45,166 nt of DNA from an uncultured Ectothiorhodospiraceae bacterium (GTDB lineage Bacteria > Pseudomonadota > Gammaproteobacteria > UBA9214). Both the position numbers and the translations under genes were made by a program. The stretch is from positions 1 to 45,166 of the forward strand of contig CAMYIX010000056.1 in assembly GCA_947258615.1 (NCBI GenBank), in the 5' to 3' direction. The notes below the pieces were generated by a model that saw nothing but the letters and a program-made list of their open reading frames with translations, searched no databases and had not been told where the DNA came from. Below are positions 6,252-26,969 of this stretch, piece by piece (the first letter of the stretch is position 1; every line of letters starts with the position of its first letter).

Positions 6252-6326
6252 CTAGACCCCTGCGGGCATGCCAAGAACCAGTGCAAGACCCAGTATCGTT
6301 GTGCGTGCCAGATGAAATTTTCGCAT
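6252..6326 (-). CDS. 24-residue signal-peptide-like small protein
   Basis: A very strong Shine-Dalgarno (GGAGGTGAT) precedes an ATG at 6324-6326 with about eight bases of spacing. The reading frame encodes MRKFHLARTTILGLALVLG plus MPAGV and then TAG. The product looks like a basic n-region plus hydrophobic core, which is a bare signal peptide or a single-span microprotein. It begins 43 bases after the NtrC-type regulator gene on the same strand and precedes the Reg_prop lipoprotein. It could be a genuine small membrane protein, a leader peptide, or the remnant of an exported protein truncated by the TAG. I see no obvious continuation in the other frames before 6140. Confidence 0.5.
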   Translation of the reverse strand: MRKFHLARTTILGLALVLGMPAGV

Positions 6327-6369
6327 ATCCATCACCTCCGTTTTTTTTGCTGCATTAAGCACTTGCTGT

Positions 6370-7761: not shown

Positions 7762-7763
7762 AA

Positions 7764-10043
7764 TCAGTTCACCTGTAATTCAACCTCCGCCTCAAGCGGC
7801 AGGTATATATCGATGGTTACGCCTTCTCCGGGAGCCACACCGATCCCCATGCGACCGCCGATGCGCTCCAGCATCGAGTTGCACAGCGACAACCCGAGGC
7901 CGCTGCCTGTGCCGGCTGCCTTGGTGGTGAAAAACGGGTCCAGTGCCTGGTTACGGGTTTTTTCATCCATGCCCTTGCCGTTGTCGGTGACACTTGCATG
8001 CAGGCTGCCATTCACAGTCTCCGTAAGCACCGTTACGACGGGCTTGTGGTCTTTGATCCCCTCGCAGGCATCCGCTGCATTCTTGAGCAGATTCATGAAC
8101 ACCTGTGTCAGCTGGTCGGGGATGGCTTTCACTGCAGGCAGCATCGGGTCCAGTTCGAGATTCAGGACGATATCCTTCCAGCGCGAATCAAATCTGACCA
8201 GGTTGCAGGTACTGCGGATAAGACCGTTCAAATCGAGCAGTTCCATCTGGCCGGGTCTGGGGGAGGCAAACTCACTGATCTGGCGCGTAAGGCTCGCCAG
8301 CCTTTCCGTCTGCTCGGCGATCATGTCCAGATTGTTCAACGTCTCCGCATCACGGGGACCTGTGCCGGGATCATAGCTGTCCCTGATATCGCGCACGGCA
8401 CCGGAGATGGCCGCAATCGGGTTGCCGACTTCATGAATGATCCCGGAGGCCAGCTGCCCGATATCGGCGATTTTTTCACGGTGAAAATATTTCTGCCAGG
8501 CCTCCTCCAGTTCCCGCTCGGCGCGTTTTTGTTCGGTCAGGTCGCGGATGACGGCAAGAAACTTGCGCTTGCCCGCCAGCAGCATTTCGTTGACCCAGAT
8601 CTCCAGCGGAAAGGTCGAACCGTCCTTGCGTTTTCCCTCGAACTCCCGGCCCCGCATGCCGAGCACCCTGTGCTGGCCGCTCTTGACAAAATGCTTCATG
8701 GCCTGGTCGTGCCGGTCCCGCAATTGTTCCGGCACCAGCACATTGACGTCCTGACCAATCAACTGGTTATGTACATAGCCGAACAGCTTTTCCGTGGCCG
8801 GATTGCAGCTCTCGATAATACCGTCCTCGTCACTCACGATAATGCTGTCCACGACGTTGTTCATGATGGTCAGGGAGCGGGTTTCACTTTCCTGCTGGGC
8901 TTCCAGTGCGCGCACGTGTTCGGTTATATCGTGGTTGGTCTCGACGATCCCCTGGATTTCACCTGCCTCGTCACGCAGCGGGGTTGCCATGACCTCGACC
9001 AGTCGAGGATCACCCTCTGTGTTGTAATGGGTATGGATCATGGTGACGGGCTTCAGTAATTCCAGCGCCTCGGCCATGGTACACGGGTGCTCCTGGCCAT
9101 TGCAGGGGGTATCGCGGTTATGTGAGAGCGCGTAGCAGAACACCGGTTCAGCGGGATCATGGCCGGCTGGCAGCAGCTTGCGTGCAGACTGGTTCATCGC
9201 AGTGACATGCAGGTCCTTGTCGATCACCATGATGGGGTCGTACACACCGTCGATGACCGATTGCAGAAATCGGCTGGATTTTGCCAGTTCCGCCGTGCGT
9301 TCATCGACGCGCTGCTCCAGCATCTCGTTTGCGTTCTCGACATTCTTCACATAGCGTTTGTTCGCTCTTTCTTGGGCCTGCAGTTGCAGATCCGTGCGTC
9401 TGAAATACAGCACCAGCATGATATAGAAGAGCCCCAGGATGGCGATTACACCCAGTACGACCTGTCGCTGCGTAACGTTGATATTCCCCAGCAGGGTCGT
9501 CACATCGGAGTAGACCTCGAATACGCCGACGATGCCGCCGGAGGCCATGTCGCGTATCGGAATGTAACTCTGGATCAGATCGGAATCTTCGATCACGTGG
9601 TCAAAGGCGTTGAAAGACTCCTTGTGCACGATACTGCTGACCGAGTGGCCAGAGCGCGCCCCGATGACGCCGCTGTTGCGCGTCTGCTGGACACCCACCT
9701 GATCAGGCTGGGTGGAGAACACCGTCAGTCCACCGGGCGTATAGATCTTGATCTTGGCGACCGTAAGCCCGCTGAGTTGTCCAACCAGGGCGTCGTGTAG
9801 TTCAGCCACGCCAGGCACCGCCCTCAAGGTGTCCGCATCGGCGCCCTGCTGGGGATTTAGCAAGGGGAAAACCATGTGCGACAAGGAGTTGGATAGCACC
9901 CGCGCGAGGGCCTCGTTCTGCTTTGCACTGGAATGCTTGAGGTCGTGCACGGCCATGCTGCGGTAGAAAAACGCCAGAAAGCAAGCGACCACTGCCGTGC
10001 CAAGGAAAGCTATGAAGGAGAAACGCCGCAGGGGTGTCGACAT
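7764..10043 (-). CDS. membrane sensor histidine kinase with periplasmic domain and two PAS domains
   Basis: The 759-residue kinase has a transmembrane helix at about 8-26, a periplasmic sensor of about 165 residues, and a second helix at about 197-215. A coiled-coil linker (ENANEMLEQRVDERT) is followed by PAS1 (about 258-372), PAS2 (about 385-510), HisKA and HATPase domains. The H-box is GIIHEVGNPIAA, the N-box NLLKNAADA, the G1 box DNGKGM and the G2 box GTGSGLGLSL. PAS1 carries the Cys/His-rich stretch CYALSHNRDTPC...HPC, a recurrent feature of some environmental kinases that might bind a metal or sense redox. It is the likely phosphodonor for the NtrC-type regulator encoded two bases downstream. 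The signal is unknown. Confidence 0.92.
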   Translation of the reverse strand: MSTPLRRFSFIAFLGTAVVACFLAFFYRSMAVHDLKHSSAKQNEALARVLSNSLSHMVFPLLNPQQGADADTLRAVPGVAELHDALVGQLSGLTVAKIKIYTPGGLTVFSTQPDQVGVQQTRNSGVIGARSGHSVSSIVHKESFNAFDHVIEDSDLIQSYIPIRDMASGGIVGVFEVYSDVTTLLGNINVTQRQVVLGVIAILGLFYIMLVLYFRRTDLQLQAQERANKRYVKNVENANEMLEQRVDERTAELAKSSRFLQSVIDGVYDPIMVIDKDLHVTAMNQSARKLLPAGHDPAEPVFCYALSHNRDTPCNGQEHPCTMAEALELLKPVTMIHTHYNTEGDPRLVEVMATPLRDEAGEIQGIVETNHDITEHVRALEAQQESETRSLTIMNNVVDSIIVSDEDGIIESCNPATEKLFGYVHNQLIGQDVNVLVPEQLRDRHDQAMKHFVKSGQHRVLGMRGREFEGKRKDGSTFPLEIWVNEMLLAGKRKFLAVIRDLTEQKRAERELEEAWQKYFHREKIADIGQLASGIIHEVGNPIAAISGAVRDIRDSYDPGTGPRDAETLNNLDMIAEQTERLASLTRQISEFASPRPGQMELLDLNGLIRSTCNLVRFDSRWKDIVLNLELDPMLPAVKAIPDQLTQVFMNLLKNAADACEGIKDHKPVVTVLTETVNGSLHASVTDNGKGMDEKTRNQALDPFFTTKAAGTGSGLGLSLCNSMLERIGGRMGIGVAPGEGVTIDIYLPLEAEVELQVN

Positions 10044-10096
10044 GAAGCTGTTTTTGGTTGCAACTCAGTACCATGAGCGTACCAAGTTACCCAGCA

Positions 10097-11569
10097 TCAC
10101 GTCAAAGCTGCAACTTGTAGGGTTTTCTCGCTCAGCGCCGGCAGCAGGATATGGACCGTGGTACCCACATCCGGTGTGGATTCCAGCTCGATGCCCCCTC
10201 CGTGTTCAGCGACAATCGACTGGCAAAGGTTCAACCCGAGGCCGCTGCCCTTGCCCTCGGTCTTGGACGTGTAGAAGGCATCAAATGCCAGGTTCAGCGT
10301 TTCGGCATCCATCCCGCAACCATTGTCCTGCACGGTCAATATCACCTGGTTGTCCACGGCGCGTGTATCGACCCGGATGGAGGGCACCCGATCGACGGAC
10401 TCCACCGCATCCAGTGCATTCATCAGCAGGCTGATAACGAGCTGGGTCAGCTGCTCCGCTCGCCCCCTGATGGCCGGGACATCAGGATCAAACTCGCGCA
10501 GGCACCCGGTCTTGGCCAGGCGCTTGTCAAACCGCAACAGCCGGCAGGCACTGTCCACCAGCTGATTGAAATCCAGCACCTCGGATTCCTGCGACAGGGG
10601 TGTGGTGTATTCGGACACGTCGCGCAGAATGGACGTAATACGGTCGAGTTGTTGCTGTATCAGATCGCAGCGCTGGTCGGGGCACTGCGCGCATCCGCTG
10701 GCTCCGTCCGTTGCTTTCATATCGTGCACCAGGGAGCCAATTGCCGCGGCCGGATTACCGATCTCATGCATGATCCCGTTCGCCAGCGTGCCGATTGCCG
10801 ACACCTTTTCCTGGTGCATGGAGCGCAGACGCTCGACCTCCTCGGCCTTTTCGCGTTCCTTCAGGGCGTGGGACATGTTGCGCATGGCATCGGAGAGCCG
10901 GCCCAGCTCATCCGAGCGCTTGACGGGGATATCGGCCCTGCCGACACGGTTTACAATATCGCTGGTCTTGGAACTGAGCAGCTCGAGGTCCCGGCTCATG
11001 CGCGTCAGGAAACGCCCGCCGCCGTAGCCGATGAGGGTGATCGCCAGGATGCCGGCCATCAGGGCCACCATCGCTACCGTGTTGCTACGTAACCTGAACC
11101 CGTCAACCATCTTGTCCTGGCGCTGTTCAAGGGCGTTCAGACGCGAACCAATGACCATTTGCGCGTCCATGAGCCGGTCACGCAATGTCCACCAGCCCGC
11201 CATCGAGGGCTTGACATAGACATCATCCAGTGCAGTCTGCAGGGCATGCAGGGCGGGTTCCGGTACGGGATAGCGCTCCGGCACGCCGGAGTACACCGCG
11301 CGCAGGACCGTGAGCTGGTTGCGCAGCGAATCCGGGGTGAGACTGTCGTCGTGCGCAGCGATCTGGGTGTGCAGGTTCTGCAACACCCGCAGCGTGGCCA
11401 GGTTCACTTGCTCCGAGAGGCCATCGCTGTCGTAACTCGACTGCAGCTGTTCGACCTTGTCGATAAGGAGCTGCTTCTCATGCAACACAAACGCAACCAG
11501 GCCGATCGCGTAGAACACGAGAACCGTGAAGGCCAGCAGACCCTTGGTGCGGATCGATGTTTCGGACAT
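10097..11569 (-). CDS. second membrane sensor histidine kinase with Cys-rich insert after the H-box
   Basis: This 490-residue kinase has TM1 at about 9-29, a helical periplasmic domain (about 30-160), TM2 at about 164-184, and a HAMP-like segment with ELGRLSDAMRNMSHAL. It ends in HisKA (His268 in GIMHEIGNPAAA) and HATPase (NALDAV; DNGCGMD; GKGSGLGLNL). A Cys-x2-Cys-x4-Cys trio (residues 293, 296 and 301) lies directly after the H-box helix, where the neighbouring kinase has no cysteine. A longer frame would start at a TTG at 11620, but that TTG is the -12 element of a sigma54-like promoter. I therefore choose the ATG at 11567-11569. The gene lies 53 bases upstream of the first kinase, so kinase-kinase-regulator form an operon. 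Confidence 0.9.
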   Translation of the reverse strand: MSETSIRTKGLLAFTVLVFYAIGLVAFVLHEKQLLIDKVEQLQSSYDSDGLSEQVNLATLRVLQNLHTQIAAHDDSLTPDSLRNQLTVLRAVYSGVPERYPVPEPALHALQTALDDVYVKPSMAGWWTLRDRLMDAQMVIGSRLNALEQRQDKMVDGFRLRSNTVAMVALMAGILAITLIGYGGGRFLTRMSRDLELLSSKTSDIVNRVGRADIPVKRSDELGRLSDAMRNMSHALKEREKAEEVERLRSMHQEKVSAIGTLANGIMHEIGNPAAAIGSLVHDMKATDGASGCAQCPDQRCDLIQQQLDRITSILRDVSEYTTPLSQESEVLDFNQLVDSACRLLRFDKRLAKTGCLREFDPDVPAIRGRAEQLTQLVISLLMNALDAVESVDRVPSIRVDTRAVDNQVILTVQDNGCGMDAETLNLAFDAFYTSKTEGKGSGLGLNLCQSIVAEHGGGIELESTPDVGTTVHILLPALSEKTLQVAALT

Positions 11570-11615
11570 AGCGGTTACGGCCTCACTGGCCGTGCTTGTT
11601 GACTGGCTATATCGC

Positions 11616-11631
11616 TGCAAGATTCACACCA
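11616..11631 (-). promoter_or_regulatory. sigma54-like promoter for the kinase/NtrC operon
   Basis: Read on the minus strand, the sequence is TGGTGTGAATCTTGCA. It has GG at -24 and GC at -12 separated by exactly ten bases, with the typical TTGCA at the -12 element. Transcription would begin near 11604, about 35 bases before the ATG at 11569. The -24 half (TGGTGTG) departs from the consensus TGGCACG. A matching activator-type palindrome lies upstream at 11842-11857. Confidence 0.6.
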
Positions 11632-11877: not shown

Positions 11878-12453
11878 TTACGGGTGTTCAGGGAACCCTG
11901 GACTCCCCCCCCATTCCCACAGGGCAGCCTCTGCCTTGCGCCGGTAGGGGTCGTCCTCGGCGGCGAGGTGGAGATAGGTACGCATGGCCCCGATGGCACC
12001 TTCCCGATCAGACAGCCCCTCGAGCGCTGCGCCCAGTCCGTAGTAGGCATTGACCTGCATCGGCCTGAGCGCCAGGGCCGACTGGAAGAAATCATGCGCC
12101 GCCTTGAACGCCTCCTGGCCGAGCAGCGCGAAGCCCATGTTGACATGGGCTTCGGGCAGGGTCGGCGCCAGCTCCAGCACCCGGTGCAGGGCGGCCACGG
12201 CGTAATCGTATTGCTTTGCATGCAGCATCAGTACCGCCTGGTGAAAGCGTTCCTCCACCTCCGCCGGCAGTGGCTGTCGGGCGTGTTCATAACTGCTGCC
12301 ACCGGCAGCAGCCGTGGTCGTGGAGGCATCGGGTCGCTTCACCTGGATCTCGACGCCGGAACCGGGAATTCGCTGCACCAGATAACCCAGGCCCGCAATC
12401 GCCGCAACCACCAGCAACACGGTCGCCAGTCTCGAGCCTGCCAGGGATGTCAT
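11878..12453 (-). CDS. membrane-anchored TPR protein
   Basis: The 191-residue protein has one N-terminal transmembrane segment (about residues 9-27) and a Ser/Ala/Gly linker. At least three tetratricopeptide-type helical pairs then follow from about 70 (KQYDYAVAALHRVLELAPTLPEAHVNMGFALL, FKAAHDFFQSALALRPMQVNAYYGLGAALEG and the next pair). It is the last gene of the long cytochrome run. Its ATG lies one base after the CcsA stop (TGAGATG), so translation is probably coupled. TPR proteins commonly accompany cytochrome maturation genes (CcmI/NrfG-like) and present apocytochrome to the ligase; that role is inferred here. Confidence 0.8.
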   Translation of the reverse strand: MTSLAGSRLATVLLVVAAIAGLGYLVQRIPGSGVEIQVKRPDASTTTAAAGGSSYEHARQPLPAEVEERFHQAVLMLHAKQYDYAVAALHRVLELAPTLPEAHVNMGFALLGQEAFKAAHDFFQSALALRPMQVNAYYGLGAALEGLSDREGAIGAMRTYLHLAAEDDPYRRKAEAALWEWGGSPGFPEHP

Positions 12454-12454
12454 C

Positions 12455-13264
12455 TCACAGCACCCCCTTGTGCGGCCCCAGGCTGCTGAAGGGCACACCG
12501 AAGAAGGTCAGGAACGCCAGACAGAAGACCACCAGGGTCAGCAGCCAGCCGGCCCACAGGGGGAGCTGCCAGGTGAGCCGGGCATGCAGGCTGAGCCCCA
12601 GCACCAGCCAGGTGATGAAGGCCCAGGTCTCCAGCGGGTCCCAGGTCCAGTAATGGCCCCAGGCGTCATGTGCCCAGACGGCACCGGCGATGAGCATGAG
12701 GCTCTGGAACACGAAAGCGACCGACATCAGGCGCCACACCGAGGCATCGAGTGTGGCAACGGAGGCCGGTCCGGTGAACCGATTGCCGGTTTTTAGCAGC
12801 CGGTTCAGCAGCAGGATCGCGGCCAGCCCCGTAGCGGCCAGGCACAGCCCCAGAAAGACCTTGCCGACGCCGACGTGGATCCACAACCAGACGGTCTCGT
12901 AGGTGGCCGGGAGTTGCCCCGGCTCCGCGGGGACGGTGGTGATCCAAACCCCCAGCAGCAAGAACACCGGCAACACGACCAGGGCGCCGGGACGGGCCAG
13001 GGGCATGCGCCAGAACACCAGCGCATAGATGAGACCGAGGCTGAACAGGTTGCTGAGCAGGACCTCGAACAGTGTCAGGAACGGCCCGTAGCCCGCGCGC
13101 GACCAGCGCATGCCAATGGCGATGGCCAGCACCGTCACCGCGGCCAGCAGAGCGGCCAGCACCAGCCGGTCATTCGGTCGTTGCCGCCAGGCCCCGTACC
13201 AGGCCGCCAGCGTCCCCGCCGAGTAGCCGGCGATCCCGCCGAGGACCCAGGGCATCTCAGACAT
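12455..13264 (-). CDS. ccsA: CcsA/ResC-type heme handling protein, System II cytochrome c biogenesis
   Basis: The 269-residue polytopic membrane protein carries the tryptophan-rich WWD motif (HDAWGHYWTWDPLETWAFITW, about residues 195-217). Flanking periplasmic/TM histidines lie in WIHVGVG and SLHARLTW, matching CcsA/ResC. The family moves heme across the inner membrane and, with ResB/CcsB, ligates it to CxxCH motifs. The start ATG at 13262-13264 overlaps the resB stop (ATGTCTGA), so I reject a longer upstream frame. It lies in an overlapping run with ResB and the 11-heme cytochrome, which implies a maturation role for the locally encoded cytochromes. Confidence 0.9.
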   Translation of the reverse strand: MSEMPWVLGGIAGYSAGTLAAWYGAWRQRPNDRLVLAALLAAVTVLAIAIGMRWSRAGYGPFLTLFEVLLSNLFSLGLIYALVFWRMPLARPGALVVLPVFLLLGVWITTVPAEPGQLPATYETVWLWIHVGVGKVFLGLCLAATGLAAILLLNRLLKTGNRFTGPASVATLDASVWRLMSVAFVFQSLMLIAGAVWAHDAWGHYWTWDPLETWAFITWLVLGLSLHARLTWQLPLWAGWLLTLVVFCLAFLTFFGVPFSSLGPHKGVL

Positions 13265-14261
13265 GTGCCGACAGAACCCCGCTGCCGGTCTCCTCCCCGC
13301 TGCGTGTGGCCGGGACCGGGGCACGGAACTTGGCCTGGAAATGCCAGCCCAGTCCCAGCACAGCGACCAGGGCGGCGGAGAACAGCCAGGGCAGGACCGG
13401 GTTGTAGGTGACCTCGTAACCCATCCACAGCCGGATGTCCTCGAAACGCACGCTACCGCCTGCGAGTGGCTGTTGTTCGCCCGGCTTCAGGACGACCGTT
13501 TCATCAGCCGCAGTCAGCTTCAACGATCCGCTGGCGCGGGCGCTTTCGAGCACCCAGTCGCGTGTTTCGGGAGGCGGCACCGGCAATTGCAATTCGAGAT
13601 CGATGCTCACCCCACCGGGACCCGTCCAGTGGTTGACCTGCTTCCAGTCATGAAACGGGTAGGAGGGGAAGTGGACCGCGCCGCGGTGCTCCCCTGTATC
13701 AGGGTCGGCCCGGGTGAGGACCGCCGAGTAACCCTTGTTGGAGGTGGTATGGAACCGGTAGCCGGCGACCTTGAGGGCGATATTGTCCCCGATCTCCACG
13801 GGGTAGGTTGCCGCACCGGGGAAATGGACTCGGCTGTGGGTCCGGCCGCGGCTGAGACCGGCGGCGTAGTGGACCTGCAGTGGTCCCTGCACAAAGTCCA
13901 CCGCCGCCAGCCGCCGCCAGGGATGCCAGGGCCCCTGTCGGACAACCGTGACGGCGTCGATGTCAAAAGTCTGTCCCTCGGTCAGCTCCACCCGCGCCTT
14001 CAGGGCCGTCATGTGGCCATAGGCGGCCAGCAGCACAACCGCCAACAGGCCCAGGTGGAAAATCAGGAGGCCGTGCTGGCGCCGGAAGCGGGGATTGAAC
14101 AGCAGGGCCGCGATGAGATTGACCGCCAGCAGCAGTAACGGCAGGACCAGCCAGGCGACCGTGGCATCCGGGTCCCGGTAGCTGACCAGTGCCCCGCCGC
14201 CCAGCAGCACCATCCCGGCGAGCGCCAGCCGGAGCGAGGACAGATGTTGCAACACACTCAC
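13257..14261 (-). CDS. resB: ResB/CcsB-family System II cytochrome c biogenesis protein
   Basis: The 334-residue protein has paired N-terminal helices starting VLQHLSSLRLALAGM, a second pair that includes LIFHLGLLAVVLLAAYG with a TM histidine, and a large periplasmic beta-rich domain (about 115-290). A C-terminal helix closes it (NPVLPWLFSAALVAVLGLGWHF). This matches ResB/CcsB, the partner of CcsA in reducing and ligating apocytochrome c. The start is the GTG at 14259-14261, which overlaps the stop of the 11-heme cytochrome (GTGA). The periplasmic motif HDWKQVNHW may hold heme-ligating histidines. It forms a tightly coupled operon with ccsA. Confidence 0.88.
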   Translation of the reverse strand: MSVLQHLSSLRLALAGMVLLGGGALVSYRDPDATVAWLVLPLLLLAVNLIAALLFNPRFRRQHGLLIFHLGLLAVVLLAAYGHMTALKARVELTEGQTFDIDAVTVVRQGPWHPWRRLAAVDFVQGPLQVHYAAGLSRGRTHSRVHFPGAATYPVEIGDNIALKVAGYRFHTTSNKGYSAVLTRADPDTGEHRGAVHFPSYPFHDWKQVNHWTGPGGVSIDLELQLPVPPPETRDWVLESARASGSLKLTAADETVVLKPGEQQPLAGGSVRFEDIRLWMGYEVTYNPVLPWLFSAALVAVLGLGWHFQAKFRAPVPATRSGEETGSGVLSAHV

Positions 14262-16690
14262 GGCGGAACCTCGCAGACGTTCTGCATCCAGTCCCGCCCG
14301 GTTCCCCCGGAACCGCTGGCCGAACCGCAGTTGCCCTCGGCCCAGGAACCGCTCGGGGCGAAGGTGAGCACCTTCAGCTTGGCATTGAAATAGTAGGGCT
14401 CCTGGTTGTAGACCTGCCCGGCACTGCCGATAGGCACCTCGGTACCGGCAGGCTGGCCGGCCTCGGGGCCGACGTCGTTGAGGTTCACCAGCAGGGCCTT
14501 GTTCTTCCAGCCGTGCGGTACGGCCACGTGGCACCACATGCAATGCATCCTTGCCATTCGGTCGGCATGGACGGCATGCAGGTTGTCCTCACCGCCGCCG
14601 CTGAAACCGCTGACATTACCGTTACCATCGCGTTCCGCATACGAATGGTAATCGTGGCATTTGAAACACAGGCCATTGTCGGGATCGGTAGCCGGTGGTC
14701 GGTCGCTTTCACCGCCCGTCTGGTCGTCCCAGGTCCCCTTGAGGATGAAATCATCGTTGGAGCCGTGCGGACCCCAGGGGCTGCCGTTCTCGCCCCCGTT
14801 GGGCACCACCGTGGTGTTGCCGGTCGTCGAACCATGGCAGTCTGAGCAGTACATGGTCTGGCTGCCGACGGCGGCGTTCCAGGGCGCCAGGAAGGCCCCG
14901 GCGCTCATGCCGCCGCGGGTGCCGGTGTCGCGATCGGTAATGTCGATGATCGGGTGCCAGGAACGGTGATTGTTTTCGATGTATCCGCTGCCGGCGCCCG
15001 AGTCCCCCGGATCGACGCCCGGCTGGCCCTGATGCCCGATGGGTGCCTGGAATTCGCGCGCCTGGTTGGTGTACTGGGTCAGGTCGTTGGTGCCGGGCGA
15101 GGTGCCACCGCCACCGATGCGCAGGTTCGGACGATTGCCTATGGGATAGACATTGTTGTCATCGTAGCCGTAATCGGAATGACACTTGAGGCAGATCTGG
15201 TACTCGCGGGTCACGTAGGTGTTGGTGACAGCCGTGGTCGCACCCGTGCCGCCATCGCCCTGCTTGACGTTGTAATTGCTCGGCAGGACATGGAAACTGG
15301 CGGAGCCGTACACCGGTTCCACGCCCCAGGCGCCGCGCAGCACCCCGGAAGCGATATTCGAGTGCCCCGCGGCATGGTTGTGGGTCCCCGCCGCGGTGTC
15401 ACCGCTGCCGTTGAACAGGCGGTTCTTCATCACCCGGTGGGGGTTGTGGCAATCGCTGCATTCCGCATGGCGATTGTCGAGGTTGCCGGTGCCCCCGGCA
15501 CCCAGCAGGGTGGCCGGCTCGGTCAGATCGGCATCGGTGACATTGTGCACCTCGGATGAGGCCAGCTGGTCGGCGGTGGTAATGGGCATGTGTCGCGAGA
15601 GCAGGAAATCGCTGCGGATGTTCGGCACCTCGGCGAGGGTGCTGAGGATGCTGTTGGCCCCATCGCTGTGGCACTGGTAGCAGGTCTCCTCCCCCGCCGG
15701 GCTGCCACCGGACTTGGGGGTGCCGAGGTCATCGGTGCCCTCGCGCAGCAGGCGGCGCGCGCCCTGCACGGTGTGGGAGTCGTGGCAATTGAGGCAGGCC
15801 GCCTCCCAGACCTGGATCCCGGTGGGAAAATCCCGCTGTTCCGCGTCCAGATCCAGGTAGATCTCATCGGCAACGGTGGGATCGGCGTGGGCCGAGAGGG
15901 CCCAGGCCTGGCCGAGCTTGTCGTGGCAGGCGAGACAGACGATGTCGTCGGCCGCGCTGAACGCCCCACCGGCCGGCAAGCTGACCTGGAACCGGTTCAG
16001 GCGCAGGAACTTGATATTCAGATCCGGGTTGGAGTCGCGGATATGGGGGTCATGGCAGCTGGTGCACTCCATCATGCCGCCCTCCAGCGGCACGACGGGT
16101 CGCACCCCCGGGCTGCGCTCGCCGATGTGGGCCTCCAGCGCGGGATCGCGCAGCTCGCCGTCGGCAATGGCCAGGGCGCTGTCGTAGGTGAACGAGATGG
16201 GGTGATCGTTGGTCAGGTCGACGCCCAGCTTGCGGGTGTAGCCGGACAGTTCCCCGTCCGGACCACCCGGCATCTCTCCCAGAGCACCCGTTCCGGTCAT
16301 GGTGATGGTGACCCCGGCCTGGCCATTGGCGACGTTCACGGCGCCCAGCGCCAGGGTGCCGTCATGGCACGAGAGACACAGCTTTGAGGTCCCACCCGGG
16401 TTGGCGGTGATATCGGTGGCGTCGATGGAATCGGACTGATAGGGGGTGTATTCGGCACCGGATTCGGCGCGATTCCAGAGTGGCGCACCGGGCAGGTTGG
16501 AGGCGCCATGCGGAGTATGGCAAAACACGCAGATCTGGCTTTCGCTCTCGGCCCTGACAGGACCGGGACCGCTCACCGAGAGGTTGTGCTTGGTACTGGC
16601 CACGTCCGAGACCGGCTCGGCAATTACCGACGACGCAGCACCGAGCAGCCAGGCGGCAAAAAACATGAGTCGGGTGGCAGCAAACCGCAT
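14258..16690 (-). CDS. exported 11-heme c-type cytochrome with OmcE-like N-terminal tetraheme part
   Basis: The 810-residue protein has a signal peptide ending near AxxSVIA (about residue 24) and eleven CxxCH motifs: CVFCH, CLSCH, CTSCH, CLACH, CLNCH, CYQCH, CSDCH, CLKCH, CSDCH, CFKCH and CMWCH. The first about 260 residues follow the plan of the tetraheme proteins at 24890 and 31299: KHNL at 34-37, CVFCHTPHG with APLWNR, CLSCHDGT, DLTNDHP, CTSCHDPH with FLR, and a fourth CxxCH. Seven more hemes with long loops occupy about 299-730. Two C-terminal cysteines (GNCGS, NVCEVPP) may form a disulfide. The start ATG overlaps the upstream NHL gene stop (TGATG). I infer an extracellular or outer-membrane electron-transfer protein. 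Confidence 0.9.
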   Translation of the reverse strand: MRFAATRLMFFAAWLLGAASSVIAEPVSDVASTKHNLSVSGPGPVRAESESQICVFCHTPHGASNLPGAPLWNRAESGAEYTPYQSDSIDATDITANPGGTSKLCLSCHDGTLALGAVNVANGQAGVTITMTGTGALGEMPGGPDGELSGYTRKLGVDLTNDHPISFTYDSALAIADGELRDPALEAHIGERSPGVRPVVPLEGGMMECTSCHDPHIRDSNPDLNIKFLRLNRFQVSLPAGGAFSAADDIVCLACHDKLGQAWALSAHADPTVADEIYLDLDAEQRDFPTGIQVWEAACLNCHDSHTVQGARRLLREGTDDLGTPKSGGSPAGEETCYQCHSDGANSILSTLAEVPNIRSDFLLSRHMPITTADQLASSEVHNVTDADLTEPATLLGAGGTGNLDNRHAECSDCHNPHRVMKNRLFNGSGDTAAGTHNHAAGHSNIASGVLRGAWGVEPVYGSASFHVLPSNYNVKQGDGGTGATTAVTNTYVTREYQICLKCHSDYGYDDNNVYPIGNRPNLRIGGGGTSPGTNDLTQYTNQAREFQAPIGHQGQPGVDPGDSGAGSGYIENNHRSWHPIIDITDRDTGTRGGMSAGAFLAPWNAAVGSQTMYCSDCHGSTTGNTTVVPNGGENGSPWGPHGSNDDFILKGTWDDQTGGESDRPPATDPDNGLCFKCHDYHSYAERDGNGNVSGFSGGGEDNLHAVHADRMARMHCMWCHVAVPHGWKNKALLVNLNDVGPEAGQPAGTEVPIGSAGQVYNQEPYYFNAKLKVLTFAPSGSWAEGNCGSASGSGGTGRDWMQNVCEVPP

Positions 16691-17772
16691 CAGGCACCTC
16701 CCAGGTATTGCAGGATGACCACCCGGCCGTTGAACATGTCCGCCACGTAGACCCGGTTGTGACGGTCGGTCCAGATCCCGGCCGGCAGGTAGAACTGGCC
16801 CGGCCGGTGGCCTGTCCCGCCAATGGGCAACAGATAGCGTCCCTGCTGATCAAAAATGAGCACGTAATCGTAGTAGGACTCAACCACGTAGATATTGCCC
16901 TCGTCATCGACCGCCACGCCCTTGGGCCGGGTGAGGTTGCCCACATAGAGCCCGCGCTGGCCGAACATCTCGAGCATGGCGCCATCCCGATCGAAGATCT
17001 GGATACGGGAGTTCAGGGTGTCGGTGACATAGAGACGGTCATGCGCGAAGCTGATGTAGGTCGGTGCATTGAGATCCCCCGGGCCGTCTCCGCGCGATCC
17101 GATGGTGTCCAGCAGCTGACCTTCGGCGTCGAAGACCTTGATGTCGTTGGCGCGGGTATCGGCGACGTAGATGGTACCGGTGGCGGGGTCCCGCGCGATC
17201 CCGGTGGGACGCACCAGGATCCCGTCACCGAAACTGCCCAGCGGCCGGCCATCCGGTCCCAGGCGCAGCACGGCGGCGAGTTCGGCATCGGCGACCAGTA
17301 CCTCGCCATTTGCATCGAGGGTGATCCCGATGGGCGCGATGAATCGCACACCCGGGCGGGCGTTCTCCCAGATCAGAAGTTCGCCGGCGACCTTGTCGAA
17401 CACGAACACCGCCTGCCGGCTCACGTCGGTGACATAGACCCTGCCCTGCTCGTCCACGGTCCCGCCCTGGGGTCGCTGCAAAACCCGTGGTTGTTTTTGT
17501 TCCAGACCCAGGCCCGCCACCCAGGCCAACACCTTGACCAGTCCGCTGCGTTTGGATTGCTCACGGGTGAAGTTCTCCTCGCCGGTGAGTTCGCCCGCAA
17601 ACAGGTAGCGCGGAACCGCCTGCTCCTTGCTGGGCCAGGATGGAGTATCCCGCTGCTCGAGGACCCCCTCAAGGTCCATGTCGAAGGTCTTTTTAGGTGT
17701 CTCGGCACAGGCGGTGAGCAGCAGCACCAACCAGAATCCTGTACCCCAGTGCAGTGTAGTATGGATACGCAT
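16690..17772 (-). CDS. NHL-repeat lipoprotein
   Basis: The 360-residue protein starts MRIHTTLHWG, has a hydrophobic signal and a lipobox LLLTAC (about residues 16-21), and so is probably a lipid-anchored envelope protein. From about residue 95 it consists of NHL-type propeller blades: GRVYVTDVSRQAVFVFD, GEVLVADAELAAVLRL, GTIYVADTRANDIKVFD, RLYVTDTLNSRIQIFD, GNIYVVESYYDYVLIFD and NRVYVADMFNGRVVIL. It is paralogous to the NHL lipoprotein at 28175. NHL proteins recur beside filament-forming cytochromes of the OmcS/OmcE type, where their role is unresolved. Its stop overlaps the start of the 11-heme gene, which suggests coordinated production. I take the ATG at 17770-17772 as the start, because the longer upstream frame lacks signal features. 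Confidence 0.82.
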   Translation of the reverse strand: MRIHTTLHWGTGFWLVLLLTACAETPKKTFDMDLEGVLEQRDTPSWPSKEQAVPRYLFAGELTGEENFTREQSKRSGLVKVLAWVAGLGLEQKQPRVLQRPQGGTVDEQGRVYVTDVSRQAVFVFDKVAGELLIWENARPGVRFIAPIGITLDANGEVLVADAELAAVLRLGPDGRPLGSFGDGILVRPTGIARDPATGTIYVADTRANDIKVFDAEGQLLDTIGSRGDGPGDLNAPTYISFAHDRLYVTDTLNSRIQIFDRDGAMLEMFGQRGLYVGNLTRPKGVAVDDEGNIYVVESYYDYVLIFDQQGRYLLPIGGTGHRPGQFYLPAGIWTDRHNRVYVADMFNGRVVILQYLGGA

Positions 17773-17786
17773 ACCCAGTTGCCCGG

Positions 17787-18215
17787 CTACCAGGCCCCCG
17801 GCCCGAGCGTCTCGTGACCGCCGACAATGCGGCTCTCCAGCCCGCGGCGCCCTGAATGGCATAGATCGCAATTCTCCACCGACCAGGCCACCTCGCCGTC
17901 GTGGCACATACCGCAGAACTTACCTTCGGTGATCTGCTCCATGGTCATGTCATTTGCACCGGCGCGCATCTCGAACCCGAGTTCATGATGACAGACCTTG
18001 CAGCGGAACCGGATGCGGTGAAACCAGTGCGGAAAGATAACCGGCCGCATGCCCTCGCGTTCCGAACGCTTATTGAGGATGACGTCGGCGTATTCAGCCT
18101 GCACGACAGGTGCCTCGACAAACAACAAGGCAACTATAACTGTCAACACAGCTGCCTGAATTGTCTGATGTATGGTTGCAATCATCCCGAGCAGTATTTT
18201 CATTGTAATCTTCAC
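17787..18215 (-). CDS. triheme c7-type cytochrome A2
   Basis: The 142-residue exported protein has a signal segment ending VVQAEYAD and three heme motifs: CKVCH, CGMCH and CDLCH. The pattern MRPVIFPHWFHRxRFRCKVCH, a GKFCGMCH and then SVENCDLCH is that of the c(7)-type triheme family. The His residues before the first motif are candidate distal ligands. It is about 60 percent identical by eye to the protein at 21212-21655 (A1). The GTG at 18213-18215 is supported by GAGG six bases upstream. It is probably a periplasmic electron shuttle to an outer-membrane conduit. Confidence 0.87.
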   Translation of the reverse strand: MKITMKILLGMIATIHQTIQAAVLTVIVALLFVEAPVVQAEYADVILNKRSEREGMRPVIFPHWFHRIRFRCKVCHHELGFEMRAGANDMTMEQITEGKFCGMCHDGEVAWSVENCDLCHSGRRGLESRIVGGHETLGPGAW

Positions 18216-18223: not shown

Positions 18224-18769
18224 TCAGCGTGGCACTTTATTCCGGGGCACGCTGTGGCAACGTTTGCATTCGGTCAGCGGGAACGAAACGGCACCATGAC
18301 ACTGGCCGCAATACTCGCCCTGCAGGACCGCGAACATGTTGACCGGCGTCTCGCCGGCCTTTTGCTTGAAGATCTTGTCATGACAGTTGCTGCAATCCAG
18401 CCACTCAGTGTGCTGCCTGTGGGGAAATAGGACCAACGGCATCTCACTGGTCTCTGGCATGATGACATCCAGGTCAAGCACCTCGATCTTGGTCTCCGGC
18501 ATAATATTGGTGCGCGGATTGATATAACCTTCCTGCAGCGCTCGTACCCAATGCACCATGTTGCCTGCTGTATCATCCGGTAGTACGGACAGGGCCTCGC
18601 GGGGTTGCTGCAGGACCCGCACTGCCGGGCTTTCCGGGTCGTGGATGCCGTCCTTCTCCAGTGGGGTCCAGCTACCGGCAGCGAAAACCGATGTCGCCCA
18701 CAGCATCAAGATACCCAAGATCGAATACTTCAGACCAAGCCGGCGGCCGGTGTGCTTGTGCAGAACCAT
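18224..18769 (-). CDS. triheme c-type cytochrome B2
   Basis: The 181-residue protein has a signal peptide (ending ATSVFAAG), an about 80-residue heme-free region that begins KDGIHDPE, and a C-terminal triheme domain with CSNCH, CGQCH and CKRCH. The segment LFPHRQHTEWLDCSNCH places conserved histidines ahead of the first heme, as in c7-type domains. It is paralogous to B1 at 20620-21204 (shared KDGIHDP, LQQPREA, INPR, HTEWLDCSNCH). An AGGAG eight bases before the ATG at 18767-18769 supports this start. It lies between A2 and C2 on the same strand. The KDGIHDP domain is of unknown function. Confidence 0.87.
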   Translation of the reverse strand: MVLHKHTGRRLGLKYSILGILMLWATSVFAAGSWTPLEKDGIHDPESPAVRVLQQPREALSVLPDDTAGNMVHWVRALQEGYINPRTNIMPETKIEVLDLDVIMPETSEMPLVLFPHRQHTEWLDCSNCHDKIFKQKAGETPVNMFAVLQGEYCGQCHGAVSFPLTECKRCHSVPRNKVPR

Positions 18770-18797
18770 TTGATGGGCTCCTCTGTTAGTGAATTGC

Positions 18798-19688
18798 CTA
18801 GCCCGGTATGTAAACACCGGCCGCGCGGATGGCGCGCACCAGGTTCTGGGTGGATTCCTCGAGCGTCTCGATCGCTGCTTCGTAATCACCACTGGCGGCC
18901 TGGTGGTCAGCATCCTGGCGCAGCTCACTGGCCTGGTCGATGAAGCGCTGGACCATGCGGTCGGTATTGCCCTTGTCACGCAACAGGACGATGACCAGCA
19001 TCTTGTGGGTCTCGTTGCGATCCACCTCGTAGTCGTACTCCTCCTGCTTGCTCTCGAAATGCAGCGAGCGCACCAGGGTGTCGCCGCCGCGCTGTTCCTC
19101 GATCGAGGTCTTGGCCATTTCGTAGGCGCCATCCAGCACCCGCCGGCCTTCCTGGATACGGCCCTCATCGGCCAGCAGGTCGGCCTCGTTCACCAGTCTG
19201 CGGGTGAGCGCGATCTGCTGTGCCGTACTATCCCGGGTCCCCTTTTCATCGCCGATACGCTCCAGGGCCTTCAACAGCACATCCACGCTTTCCGCGCGGG
19301 CATCGAAGTCGCGGCGTTCCTTCTGCTCCGCCAGGCCGCCGGTCCCCGCGAGTTTCACGGCATCGAACAACACCACCGTGGTCTCGTGGAGCAGCTCGGA
19401 GGCGCGCGCGGCATCACCGCCGTCATATGCAGAGCGCGCCTGGCGATAGAGATCCCGTGCCTCCTCGAGGCGCGACTGGGCCGCCGGGTTGCCGCTGGCC
19501 TCGACCCGCTGCGCGCCGGATGACGATGTCACCAGCCGCGCCACATTCTCGAGGCGGTTTGCCAGTGTCTGCGGGTCCTGGTCCCGGGATGCCGCGGAAG
19601 GCTCGGCCGCCGGAACCGCTGCCGGCAGCAGCGCGAACACCAGGGCCAGGATGGTCAGGGACAGGGTAAAAGGGTGTCTTGTTGTCAC
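18798..19688 (-). CDS. exported all-helical protein C2 (unknown family)
   Basis: The 296-residue protein has a clear signal peptide (LALVFALLPAAVPAAEP, cleavage near 28) and a long helical, charged remainder without cysteines. The C-terminal third contains SxxxExKQEEYDYEVDRNETHKML and a closing GDYEAAIETLEESTQNLVRAIRAAGVYIPG. These align with the FRYEQERYRSHRML and GHYRAAIKTQEAATRHLVNALRRAGLFLP parts of C1 at 19709. I do not recognise a named domain. The helical pairs resemble TPR-like or coiled scaffolds. Its position between triheme cytochrome genes suggests an assembly or scaffolding protein for the periplasmic carriers. Confidence 0.75.
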   Translation of the reverse strand: MTTRHPFTLSLTILALVFALLPAAVPAAEPSAASRDQDPQTLANRLENVARLVTSSSGAQRVEASGNPAAQSRLEEARDLYRQARSAYDGGDAARASELLHETTVVLFDAVKLAGTGGLAEQKERRDFDARAESVDVLLKALERIGDEKGTRDSTAQQIALTRRLVNEADLLADEGRIQEGRRVLDGAYEMAKTSIEEQRGGDTLVRSLHFESKQEEYDYEVDRNETHKMLVIVLLRDKGNTDRMVQRFIDQASELRQDADHQAASGDYEAAIETLEESTQNLVRAIRAAGVYIPG

Positions 19689-19708: not shown

Positions 19709-20617
19709 CTACGGTAAAAACAGACCTGCACGTCGCAGGGCATTGACCAGGTGCCGGGTTGCGGCCTCCTGCGTCTTGATGGCGGCACGGTAGTGGCCGG
19801 CAGCTGATTGTGTGCCGGCAGTTTGCAGAAGGTCACGTGAACGCCCCAACTCCGCCTCCATGTAGTTGCGCGCCTCGGGGCCCGGGTTGCGTTCCAGCAT
19901 GGCCATATCGTAGAGCATGCGATGGCTGCGGTAGCGCTCCTGCTCATAGCGGAATTCATCCTGGGGGGTGTCGAATACCAGCCGGTGCTCGAGGGTCTCG
20001 TTCGCGCGCACCCGGGCCAGGGCGACGGAGACCTGGTCGTAGACCAGCTGCAGGATATCATTGGCCTCCCGGTAGCGACCCTCGGAGACCTCGCGCTCGG
20101 CCCGGGTAACGGCCTGGTCGACGGCGTTGATATCCAGTTCGGACCGTGCGACGGCGCCCTTCTCCTCGACTACATCGGCAAAGGCGCTCCGGAATGCCAT
20201 GACTCCCGCCAGGCGTTCTTGATAGGCGGACCGCTGTTCGGCCGCGGACGGCGATTGCTTGCTGGCGCGCGCCAGCGCGGAGGCCTGCTCCAGCGCGGTA
20301 TTCACCGACACGGTGGCGGCGGCCATTTCATTGTTCCCGGAGGCAATACGTGCCTGCTCGAGTAAACCGCGTATCTGCATAATCGTATCTCCGCTTGCGG
20401 GCCGGGTAGCGGCTGCGCTTTTGTCCGCGCGCGCCAAGAGCATTTCCACCAGCCGTATCTTCTGTCCGAGCAACTGCTGCTCCTGTTGCCCCTTTGATAC
20501 CTGCGCGCCTTCCCGGTCCCCAGCGTCCGCTGCGCCGGTCAACAACGGCGCATCCTGCGCCATGGCCGTCTCAAGCAGGACCAGCAGGACGACAACACAG
20601 GAGGGCCCGGGGCGCAT
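19709..20617 (-). CDS. exported all-helical protein C1 (paralogue of C2)
   Basis: The 302-residue protein begins at the ATG 20615-20617, two bases after the stop of B1 (TGACGATG). It has a signal segment VVVLLVLLETAMAQ followed by an extended helical region. Repeated pairs of the form LLEQARIASGNNEMAAATVSVNTALEQA and EREVSEGRYREANDILQLVYDQV suggest TPR-like antiparallel helices. It has no cysteine in the mature part. The C-terminal 100 residues match C2. Function is unknown. The conserved C-terminal end (RRAGLFLP / RAAGVYIPG) suggests a specific docking or export feature. Confidence 0.75.
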   Translation of the reverse strand: MRPGPSCVVVLLVLLETAMAQDAPLLTGAADAGDREGAQVSKGQQEQQLLGQKIRLVEMLLARADKSAAATRPASGDTIMQIRGLLEQARIASGNNEMAAATVSVNTALEQASALARASKQSPSAAEQRSAYQERLAGVMAFRSAFADVVEEKGAVARSELDINAVDQAVTRAEREVSEGRYREANDILQLVYDQVSVALARVRANETLEHRLVFDTPQDEFRYEQERYRSHRMLYDMAMLERNPGPEARNYMEAELGRSRDLLQTAGTQSAAGHYRAAIKTQEAATRHLVNALRRAGLFLP

Positions 20618-20619
20618 CG

Positions 20620-21204
20620 TCACTTGGCGGCGGTATCCGTCTTCGTCTTGGCGTGGCATTTGCGGCAGTCGGACACCGGGAAGGCGACCTTGCCATGACA
20701 TACCCCGCACTTCTCGCCCAGCAGAATCGAGGCCATGCTGATTTGATTGGCTCCCTTCTGGGGAATGAAAATCGCGGGATGGCAGTTGGAACAGTCGAGC
20801 CACTCGGTGTGCTGCTTGTGCGGGTAGACCACATCCGGCATCGAACCCTTGACCTCGCGCACGATATTGAGGTCCATGATGATGGGTTCCTTGGCCGGGT
20901 CGAGGCGGTCATAGCGCGGATTGATCTTGTTCTCCTCGAGCGCCTTGACCCAGTCGATGCGGTTGCCCGAGTTGGCCTTGGGCATGGGTTCGAAGGCCTC
21001 CCGCGGCGGTTGCAGTATCCGGGTGCCGCTGTTGTCGGGATCGTGGATACCGTCCTTCATCGGCGGCGGGTTGCGCTCTTCCGGTGGCTTCATCAGGCGG
21101 TTGAAGGTATTGGCATTTTGCGCCGTTGCGACACCGCTGGCCAAATGCAAAACGATTGGCACAGTCAGTGCGATTATCGAAAATAACAGTCGTGATGATT
21201 TCAT
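20620..21204 (-). CDS. triheme c-type cytochrome B1
   Basis: The 194-residue exported cytochrome has a signal ending near GVATAQN, a heme-free front domain (MKDGIHDPDNSG ... LQPPREAF ... INPRYD), and a triheme C-terminus with CSNCH, CGVCH and CRKCH. The histidines in VVYPHKQHTEWLDC are probable axial ligands. It is paralogous to B2. The ATG at 21202-21204 follows A1 by seven bases. Translation continues directly into C1. It is probably periplasmic and, with A1, carries electrons from the inner membrane to the outer-membrane complex. Confidence 0.87.
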   Translation of the reverse strand: MKSSRLLFSIIALTVPIVLHLASGVATAQNANTFNRLMKPPEERNPPPMKDGIHDPDNSGTRILQPPREAFEPMPKANSGNRIDWVKALEENKINPRYDRLDPAKEPIIMDLNIVREVKGSMPDVVYPHKQHTEWLDCSNCHPAIFIPQKGANQISMASILLGEKCGVCHGKVAFPVSDCRKCHAKTKTDTAAK

Positions 21205-21211
21205 AGTGGCC

Positions 21212-21655
21212 TCACTTGTTGTTGTTACCGCCGGCACCACCTGCGCCGGCCACCGGGGCGACCAGCTGCTGCAGGGTGCTCTCGTGCACCTGGGTGGGCG
21301 TGCCGGGCTTGGCGGAATGGCACAAGTCACAGTTTTCCACCGACCAGGCGATGTCGCCGTTGTGGCAGGCACCGCAATACTCCCCATCGATGATCTTCAG
21401 CATGTTGATCTCGTTGCCACCGGCCTTGAACTTGAAGCCGAGGTCGGCGTGGCAGACCTTGCAGCGGAAACGTACCCGGTGGAACCAGTGCGGGAAGATG
21501 ACCGGGCGCATGCCGGCCTCGTCGGAGTAATTGTTCATCACGACATCACCGTATTCGGCCTTGGCCGGTTCGATGCCGGTAGCCATAAGCAGCAAGCCTG
21601 CGAGCAAACCCCACAATCCACCGATCGCGAGTTTCTTGATTGTTGTATCTGCCAT
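21212..21655 (-). CDS. triheme c7-type cytochrome A1
   Basis: The 147-residue exported protein has a signal ending GIEPAKAEYGD and three heme motifs (CKVCH, CGACH, CDLCH) in the c7-type spacing, with FPHWFHRVRFRC supplying likely ligand histidines. The C-terminal tail is low-complexity (AGAGGAGGNNNK) and differs from A2. It is the first cytochrome after the porin, separated by a 207-base gap (21656-21862) in which I see no clear promoter or terminator. A GAGG about ten bases upstream supports the ATG. Confidence 0.88.
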   Translation of the reverse strand: MADTTIKKLAIGGLWGLLAGLLLMATGIEPAKAEYGDVVMNNYSDEAGMRPVIFPHWFHRVRFRCKVCHADLGFKFKAGGNEINMLKIIDGEYCGACHNGDIAWSVENCDLCHSAKPGTPTQVHESTLQQLVAPVAGAGGAGGNNNK

Positions 21656-21862: not shown

Positions 21863-23632
21863 TCAAAAGATACCCCCGATATTCCTCACTACGGAAAACA
21901 GGACAAAATAATTCCGGTTACCACTGCCGCGTTCGGTGGCCACCGCCCTGAGCCGGAAACCGAGGCGGCCAAGGTTGTAGGTCAGCTCATTTTCCCACGC
22001 CTTTTCAGACAACAAGTCGCGGCCCGACACATCGCCCCGCCCCTCGCGCAGGGGATTCAGGCTGCTGGAATTCAGACTCAACTCGGACAGGAACTGCAGG
22101 CGCCGGACACCGAACAGGCGGCTGTTGCGATAGCTCAGATCCGCGCTGGAAAAATCGAAGGAACCGTCTTCGCGGTGTATGGATTGCAGTGTCAGGCCCG
22201 CACTCATGTTGATATGCCGCCCGATCCGGCGATTATGCAGCGCGCTCAGGTTGATACTCTGCAAGCTGCCCGTGTCGTCCGATCCCCCCAAGCTCCGGCT
22301 ATCGCTCGCGGTAACAACCAGTTGCGAGCTGCTCTGACCCAGGGCGCGCACCAGGCCAAGCGAGCCAAACGTGGTCAAACCCTGCGTGCTGTCCCCCGGG
22401 TCAGAATAAGTGGCCGACACGCTCTGGCTGAGGGCGAGATTCAGCACCGTCGGGCTGGGGCCAAAGGGCATGGACCGGTTCAGGCCGTGACTGAGTGTGA
22501 GACCCGCCGTGCGCGTGTCATCCCCTTCCGAGGAAAAAGCGTTGGTCGCGCTGGCGGCCGTAGACCAGCTGTAGCTGAAGCCGCGCACATCGAAAGGAGC
22601 CGGCGAGTAGCTGAGCGTCCCGGACTGGGAATGCGTGTCACTGTCGCTCTCGCCACGCCTGACGAAGGCGGATCTTAACCGACCCGATGCCCGCAGCTCC
22701 GGGGTCAGCTCGTAGTAGGCGGTCATGGACAGGTCGGTATCTTGGACCTCTTCCGTCACAGTCCCTGTCTCGGTCCGGCCACTGGAATAGCGTGCGTCCC
22801 CTGTCACACGCAGTGGACGCTGCCGTGAACGCCAGGCGGCGGCGCTGGACAGATCGAGCGCCTGGCGCTGGGTGCCGGCCAGTGCATTGCTGAGGTCGAA
22901 ATCGACAAAACTGGCATAATTCTGCAGGGAGAAATGGGAAGTGGGCCGGTAGCTGTGCCTGGCGTTCAGCAACAGGGTCTGCAACTCGGTATCGATCTCG
23001 CCTTCCCCAAGCCGGCGGTCATCGACCGACGCATTGAATGCGTAGCTATGCTTGCTGACCTGGTGAGAGGATTCCAGCTGGAGGCGATCACCCTCGTTGA
23101 TACCGCTCAATCGTTCGGTATCCTGGCTATCGTGCTCGTATCGGGCGAGATACCGGGAGTCGCCGGTGGTGGGCCTGTATTGCTGCTGCACACGGACAAG
23201 GGTGCTGCGCACGTCACCGCTGTCCCGGGTGATCCCGAAGGGATCGTCGACATCGGCGCGGGTGTCCGAGACATTTCCATAGACTTCGAACGGAAAGCGA
23301 CTGGTGGGAAACACCCGCAGCCGGGCATTAGCGGCCAGCAATTCGCTGGTGGCATCGGTCTCGCCCTCGGTCTGCGCCTGCGAAACGGTGAAACCTCCAT
23401 CGGTCGTCGCGAACCAGGGCTGCCAGATGTAGGTGTACAGGTTGAGGTTGGCGTCGTAGCGCTGCGATACGACGTCGTCCCCTTGCCCTGAGCGGCTCGC
23501 CTGGCTGGCCGTCGCTTGCAGGTAGCCGGAGTAGCGCACCGGCGGGAACTCCGCCCGGGCCCTACCCGGTAAGGCCAGCATGCTGGCCGCAAGCAGCAGC
23601 ATGACGACGCGGGGTGCCCATGGCCGGATCAT
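21863..23632 (-). CDS. outer-membrane beta-barrel protein (putative porin of a porin-cytochrome conduit)
   Basis: The 589-residue protein has a signal peptide (VVMLLLAASMLALPGRARA) followed by alternating amphipathic strands rich in Tyr, Ser, Thr and Gln. Typical turns include SGYLQATASQASRSGQGDD and HSYRPTSHFSLQNYASF, and the chain ends in phenylalanine (RNIGGIF), as expected for a Bam-inserted barrel. I count roughly 24 or more candidate strands, but cannot fix the number. It has no CxxCH. By context (a foldase upstream, triheme cytochromes downstream) it resembles the barrel of porin-cytochrome conduits or a dedicated export pore for the extracellular cytochrome. I do not recognise a specific MtrB/PioB signature, so that assignment is contextual. 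Confidence 0.72.
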   Translation of the reverse strand: MIRPWAPRVVMLLLAASMLALPGRARAEFPPVRYSGYLQATASQASRSGQGDDVVSQRYDANLNLYTYIWQPWFATTDGGFTVSQAQTEGETDATSELLAANARLRVFPTSRFPFEVYGNVSDTRADVDDPFGITRDSGDVRSTLVRVQQQYRPTTGDSRYLARYEHDSQDTERLSGINEGDRLQLESSHQVSKHSYAFNASVDDRRLGEGEIDTELQTLLLNARHSYRPTSHFSLQNYASFVDFDLSNALAGTQRQALDLSSAAAWRSRQRPLRVTGDARYSSGRTETGTVTEEVQDTDLSMTAYYELTPELRASGRLRSAFVRRGESDSDTHSQSGTLSYSPAPFDVRGFSYSWSTAASATNAFSSEGDDTRTAGLTLSHGLNRSMPFGPSPTVLNLALSQSVSATYSDPGDSTQGLTTFGSLGLVRALGQSSSQLVVTASDSRSLGGSDDTGSLQSINLSALHNRRIGRHINMSAGLTLQSIHREDGSFDFSSADLSYRNSRLFGVRRLQFLSELSLNSSSLNPLREGRGDVSGRDLLSEKAWENELTYNLGRLGFRLRAVATERGSGNRNYFVLFSVVRNIGGIF

Positions 23633-26962: not shown

Positions 26963-26969
26963 GCGCGGT

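Follow-up and report, generated by a model that had tools for sequence, protein, structure and literature searches.

An Undecaheme Cytochrome of the UetJ Family Joins an OmcE-Type Tetraheme Unit to a Heptaheme Module: A Possible End Piece for Cytochrome Filaments

The Uet Pathway and Cytochrome Filaments

Two kinds of described system lie closest to the gene that is considered here, an undecaheme cytochrome gene at positions 14258–16690 (minus strand) of a 45,166-nucleotide stretch of DNA from an uncultured Ectothiorhodospiraceae bacterium (contig CAMYIX010000056.1), which is called the window below. One is the Uet pathway, which is centered on an undecaheme cytochrome and in which UetA is a separate extracellular cytochrome (PMC10734462). 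For Tenderia, a paper from 2017 lists three triheme cytochromes (Tel_16515, Tel_16520 and Tel_16530), a tetratricopeptide repeat (TPR) protein (Tel_16525) and an undecaheme cytochrome (Tel_16545) (PMC5371394), and the undecaheme protein UetJ is also known from Leptothrix (PMC13386937). The published context suggests that carriers of the pathway take up electrons from cathodes or Fe(II) (PMC10734462, PMC5371394). The other kind is the cytochrome filament. In the filaments of OmcE and OmcS, heme ligands cross between subunits: a histidine in one of them serves a heme in the adjacent one (PMC9473688). The solved OmcE structure has its hemes arranged as a single line from subunit to subunit (PMC9473688), in which the last heme of each subunit is followed by the first heme of the one after it (PMC11936953).

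Identity of the 11-Heme Protein

The open reading frame (ORF) starts with ATG and encodes 810 amino acids with exactly 11 CxxCH motifs, as the original prediction for this stretch had it. The first 24 residues (16619–16690, minus strand) read as an apparent signal peptide that has no lipobox cysteine, and the protein is predicted to be exported. Judged by its heme count and its gene cluster, the protein is assigned as the UetJ orthologue of the Uet pathway. It shares the 11 CxxCH motifs with UetJ of Ca. Tenderia electrophaga (Tel_16545), Gallionella and Leptothrix, and the window matches the published cluster in the order of the tetraheme cytochrome, the peptidyl-prolyl isomerase (PPIase), the barrel candidate, the triheme cytochromes and the NHL protein. 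The two differ in gene number: four triheme genes are present in the window, with a single NHL gene beside uetJ, as against three trihemes (UetDEG) and UetHI in the published pathway. In one related genome, both the gene order and the position fit those expected for the Tel_16545 locus. The claim of the original prediction that no protein with this arrangement had been described is wrong at the gene level, because the gene is the undecaheme uetJ of a published pathway (PMC10734462, PMC13386937, PMC5371394); the UetJ-type 11-heme architecture is widespread and has already been named in other bacteria.

Searches of Pfam and NCBIfam returned generic doubled-CXXCH matches only, and the named decaheme families scored far under their cut-offs: 20.8 bits against 209.3 for the OmcA/MtrC family (TIGR03507) and 38 bits against 192.2 for the DmsE/MtrA family (TIGR03508). 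The S-layer undecaheme cytochrome of Carboxydothermus ferrireducens (PDB 6qvm) has eleven hemes as well, but no sequence match between it and UetJ was found in the searches run, and the structural Z is only 2.9 over 183 residues.

Matches to UetJ were found in 53 of the 369 sampled genomes of the window's class, where the closest 20 or so orthologues are 54–64% identical over most of their length. Eleven CxxCH motifs are present in nearly every complete orthologue, across many phyla. Named records of the long form come from Burkholderiales, Rhodocyclaceae, Aromatoleum, Dechloromonas, Gallionella, Motiliproteus, Magnetococcales and others, and relatives at approximately 24–31% identity were found in metagenome-assembled genomes (MAGs) labeled Campylobacterota, Persephonella, Nitrospirae, Elusimicrobia, Myxococcales and Planctomycetota, among more. 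Cultured strains that carry an orthologue include Aromatoleum tolulyticum ATCC 51758, Aromatoleum evansii KB740 and Motiliproteus sp. SC1-56. Three genomes that share the window's genus or family are near-complete and lack the system, so that the distribution is patchy, which possibly reflects transfer. In four of the loci, two undecaheme genes lie close together in one cluster.

An OmcE-Type Unit at the N-Terminus

Residues 25–258 (15917–16618, minus strand), which hold hemes 1–4, make up the N-domain. A phmmer search of the PDB matched residues 21–224 of UetJ to OmcE of Geobacter sulfurreducens (7tfs, E = 8.4e-22) and residues 16–217 to 9yuq (E = 5.6e-18), a putative multiheme cytochrome c that is a stand-alone tetraheme of 218 residues with 16 chains in the entry; there were no other matches at E up to 1. 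A profile of 50 UetJ orthologues matched OmcE over profile positions 20–258 with E = 4e-49. As an alignment control, shuffled sequences were used in which the CxxCH motifs were kept in place. The N-domain scored z = 18.9 with the stand-alone tetraheme at 24890–25714, 12.8 with the one at 31299–32279 and 18.0 with Geobacter OmcE (7tfs), while the comparisons with unrelated multiheme proteins of the window (two triheme c7 cytochromes and a pair of triple class-I cytochromes c) and with UetJ's own C-terminal part gave values between −1.4 and 1.1. The resemblance thus far exceeds what shared heme motifs would give, and the kinship with the two neighboring tetrahemes, which had been predicted, stands well above that with unrelated multiheme cytochromes. 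The landmarks KHNL, CVFCHTPHG/APLWNR, CLSCHDGT, DLTNDHP, CTSCHDPH/FLR and CLACH are all found in the 11-heme protein. That they are common to both tetrahemes, as had been stated, holds fully for 24890–25714; several are absent from the divergent 31299–32279.

The predicted fold agrees with the sequence. An AlphaFold2 model of UetJ (predicted local distance difference test, pLDDT, 73; predicted template modeling score, pTM, 0.79) had a single Foldseek match in the PDB, which was 7tfs (E = 2e-6), and residues 34–257 of the model align with 7tfs in VIA with Z 10.9 and 3.3 Å over 180 residues. Both sequence and predicted fold show the front third of UetJ (residues 34–257) to be a homologue of the OmcE filament subunit; the histidine pattern is also in common, and the N-domain retains all eight histidines that are present in the stand-alone subunits. 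The difference lies at the end of the unit: the OmcE chain stops two residues past heme 4, whereas UetJ continues with seven further hemes. In a tree, the N-domains of 35 undecahemes formed one clade (support 99/92), separate from the stand-alone subunits.

The Heptaheme Module

The C-domain (residues 259–810; 14258–15916, minus strand) holds hemes 5–11 and was delimited from alignments, a table of histidines, the model and stand-alone relatives. The original prediction that these seven CxxCH motifs have no counterpart in the two tetrahemes proved right, and stand-alone relatives exist elsewhere. In the alignments, the seven heme motifs and the candidate distal histidines are kept in both the long (approximately 800–960 amino acids) and the short (approximately 570–640 amino acids) forms. 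A histidine ten to fourteen residues past heme 4 (His268 in UetJ) is conserved, and the column of this leading histidine is invariant across 75 of 75 aligned C-domains. Most of the short-form undecahemes examined (loci L033–L040, for example 11953–13713 of L035) have one more conserved site close to the C-terminus, CX3CH with xxH after it; by its sequence this is probably a twelfth heme, which simple CxxCH counting misses.

The C-domain also occurs without the N-domain, in exported proteins with seven to nine hemes that were found on five contigs. A Zixibacteria MAG contig (L134, 634–2395) carries an exported tetraheme gene that is directly followed by a separate exported heptaheme gene, right after an NHL gene, and another OmcE-like gene lies approximately 4 kb upstream of the pair. 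These are the same two modules as in UetJ, unfused. A known family, UetJ, does cover the whole protein including the N-terminus, but its C-terminal module is also found alone, and the reading of the protein as an OmcE-type tetraheme unit fused to a separate seven-heme module is supported by sequence, predicted fold and tree.

The model of the C-domain alone was confident (pLDDT 91.6, pTM 0.93). With it, Foldseek found no match in the PDB at E ≤ 10 and a search of BFVD found nothing; when the PDB was searched with the sequence of the C-domain alone, nothing beyond weak motif-level matches came up. Likeness to OmcS (Z 3.4), 6qvm and NrfA (Z 2.0) in VIA was too weak to claim kinship, and OmcS did not match the N-domain of UetJ in the searches run. 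Relatives of the C-domain with nine hemes (L113, 6457–9350; L118, 8052–10834; L121, 8408–11227) are located just downstream of genes for OmcS-like proteins with five to six hemes. A profile of these three neighbors matched OmcS over most of its length with E = 7e-18; taken singly, the neighbor in L118 matched with E = 8.8e-6 and that in L113 with E = 0.0026, and that in L121 gave no match. Proteins with 26 and 16 hemes are also encoded near the C-domain relatives in L118 and L121. The gene adjoining another stand-alone heptaheme gene (L109, 3577–4641) showed no convincing likeness to OmcE or OmcS.

Co-Occurrence with Stand-Alone Subunits

The fused form co-occurs near-obligately with stand-alone OmcE-like subunits. 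A profile of the stand-alone subunits (A4) was run on whole genomes, and the matches were sorted by the size of their open frames. A stand-alone OmcE-like gene was present in 29 of 30 genomes with the fused protein and in none of eight with the heptaheme only (Fisher p = 1.8e-7). In a sample of another class, 14 genomes had both forms, three the fused form only, three the subunit only and 77 neither (p = 1.5e-11). Within the window's class, 52 of the 369 genomes matched, and among the matches listed both forms were present in all but three genomes, where the sequence breaks off at a contig end or is incomplete.

A Proposed End Piece for UetA Filaments

In each of the 33 stand-alone subunits examined, the chain stops exactly two residues past heme 4. 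Every UetJ runs on from there, with a short linker that leads to the conserved histidine, and the stand-alone heptaheme proteins begin, past the signal peptide, with the equivalent leading histidine. Because the chains end, continue and start in this manner, the heptaheme may substitute for the following subunit at the heme-4 end. In the mechanism that we propose, the heptaheme with its own leading His268 would take the place of the next subunit in cis, and the N-terminal heme-1 face of UetJ would stay open as a docking site for the heme-4 end of a UetA subunit. If UetA polymerizes and the histidines serve the hemes as this arrangement would have it, UetJ would dock at one end of a UetA filament, which it would terminate, nucleate or anchor, and through it electrons would move between wire and heptaheme. 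The heptaheme would face either the cell surface and the barrel or an outside partner. The cluster also includes a PPIase and an NHL propeller, which we count in favor of this reading by likeness to the Geobacter operon of OmcS and osc (omcS companion), a filament operon proposed to include folding and secretion companions (PMC13194489). We put the probability that UetJ consists of an OmcE-type unit with a heptaheme at its heme-4 end and ends, nucleates or anchors a UetA filament at about one half. The suggestion of the original prediction that such a fusion could cap or anchor a filament is plausible, and the co-occurrence adds to its weight, although it is still a matter of inference.

Several points weigh against an end piece. 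The co-occurrence counts are hand tallies by open-frame size in which related genomes were treated as independent, and the three genomes of the other class that have the fused form only had no stand-alone subunit detected. The models contain no heme, so that heme ligation cannot be read from them, and we infer both the UetA filament and its contact with UetJ. The N-domain of UetJ is nearer to OmcE (mean identity 39%) than to UetA of the same clusters (33%), and the OmcE fold could have been kept as a plain scaffold for hemes. Furthermore, a deeper tree with many divergent sequences left the UetJ clade unresolved. That tree took in distant phyla and proteins with 16–75 hemes and suffered from long branches and from rows that had been wrongly extracted, which is why the smaller tree of 35 undecahemes was relied upon.

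The alternative that survives best is that UetJ is a free-standing undecaheme terminal oxidase or reductase on the outer surface, for which the OmcE fold would be only a heme scaffold, and that the co-occurrence reflects one operon being inherited. The published pathway, which is centered on the undecaheme and treats UetA as a separate extracellular cytochrome (PMC10734462), is in line with such a role, as are the clade of its own that the N-domain forms and the occurrence of the heptaheme without an OmcE unit in other genomes. However, the co-occurrence persists in distant phyla where little other operon content is recognizable, the filament-type histidines are all kept, as is the precise point where the subunit ends, and we consider this role rather unlikely.

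It is less probable still that UetJ is a conduit across the outer membrane, with its hemes threaded through the UetC barrel, like MtrA in MtrB, and carrying electrons from the periplasmic trihemes to UetA. With 550 residues for its seven hemes, the heptaheme domain is bulky and not a thin wire, no MtrA-like structure in the PDB was matched by the heptaheme in Foldseek, and the barrel was assigned by position only. A candidate barrel is nevertheless encoded in the same cluster, no MtrA/DmsE-type decaheme was detected among the cytochromes of the cluster, and a conduit would be compatible with UetJ as an anchor. That UetJ itself polymerizes, or inserts along the UetA filament and not at one end, appears very improbable: a complete OmcE unit is present, but its heme-4 end is covalently occupied by the heptaheme, which would be bulky at each step. 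Chance resemblance or a chimeric assembly can be dismissed, given the full-length orthologues at 54–64% identity in dozens of genomes and the shuffle controls.

The Gene Cluster in the Window

All genes of the cluster are encoded on the minus strand. The stand-alone OmcE-like subunit UetA (24890–25714) matched 9yuq (E = 1.3e-22) and 7tfs (E = 1.8e-21) in phmmer. It is followed by a PpiC-type PPIase in the UetB position (23683–24774, Pfam Rotamase) and by a candidate outer-membrane beta-barrel in the UetC position (21863–23632), which has no Pfam match and was assigned by position and by synteny with relatives at 23–31% identity. Triheme c7 cytochromes occupy the UetD (21212–21655) and UetE (20620–21207) positions, both by TIGR04257, and the UetG position (18224–18943, start uncertain; PF14522 and TIGR04257), and a fourth follows at 17787–18203 (TIGR04257). 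Between the UetE and UetG positions lie two ORFs without a Pfam match that were placed by synteny, one in a possible UetF position (19709–20668) and one with relatives at the same place in many loci (18798–19688). The NHL-repeat beta-propeller (16690–17775, Pfam NHL; UetH/I position) is located immediately upstream of uetJ, and an NHL gene next to uetJ is conserved even in distant phyla.

Downstream of uetJ, a ResB-like cytochrome c biogenesis protein (13257–14200) was identified by a Pfam ResB match barely above the cut-off, and its listed ORF reaches upstream to 14543. A CcsA-type cytochrome c assembly protein (12455–13324, Pfam Cytochrom_C_asm) comes next, as a gene of this type does after uetJ or the heptaheme gene in many loci, and is followed by a TPR protein (11878–12498) that is conserved after ccsA by synteny.

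The second, divergent stand-alone tetraheme of the OmcE family (31299–32279, minus strand) was assigned by its sequence, the tree and the shuffle control. It has CVFCHTPQ, VPQWIG and GNHPVG in place of TPH, APLWN and NDHP, and the loss of the second histidine of CxxCHTPH and of the NDHP motif may possibly mean that its heme ligation is altered. A second NHL gene (28175–29314) lies on the strand opposite to the cluster. Nearby, two neighboring proteins with three CxxCH motifs each and class-I cytochrome c domains are encoded at 25925–28349, and the flavoprotein of a flavocytochrome c sulfide dehydrogenase lies beside the cluster at 29779–31038 (plus strand). The region 3605–11620 encodes two propeller proteins together with a regulator of the NtrC type and a pair of sensor kinases; relatives of some of these recur near the Uet cluster in four other loci, which suggests dedicated regulation. 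By eye, three mutually similar membrane proteins with C-terminal TPR-like repeats (34435–36579, 37076–38899 and 38917–40893) flank the cluster.

Significance

The homology of the UetJ N-terminus to OmcE was not found stated in the Uet literature searched, which excepts the founding description (reportedly Eddie et al. 2022 in mSphere), and priority is unproven. The same holds for the heptaheme as a separate module, whether alone, split from the tetraheme or beside OmcS-like genes, and for the co-occurrence of the fused form with the stand-alone subunit. The family is known; its architecture offers a clear proposal, open to testing, as to what ends an OmcE-type wire. More tentatively, UetJ may be a dedicated, covalently built terminus of OmcE-type nanowires, with its heme-4 face permanently capped by a heptaheme through which the wire is connected with the cell or with its target, and the heptaheme may be a general companion of cytochrome filaments, since its relatives also adjoin OmcS-like genes.

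We know of no account of how cytochrome nanowires start, how they end or how they are wired into the cell envelope. If an OmcE-type filament is held at one end by UetJ, these questions would become testable with genetics and cryo-EM through one conserved protein, in cultured strains and in many uncultured lineages, for a wire that would carry electrons between the cell and its surroundings. The little-studied Uet pathway would then become a nanowire system instead of a set of surface cytochromes, and an OmcE unit joined to a heptaheme would serve as a sequence marker for such systems across phyla.

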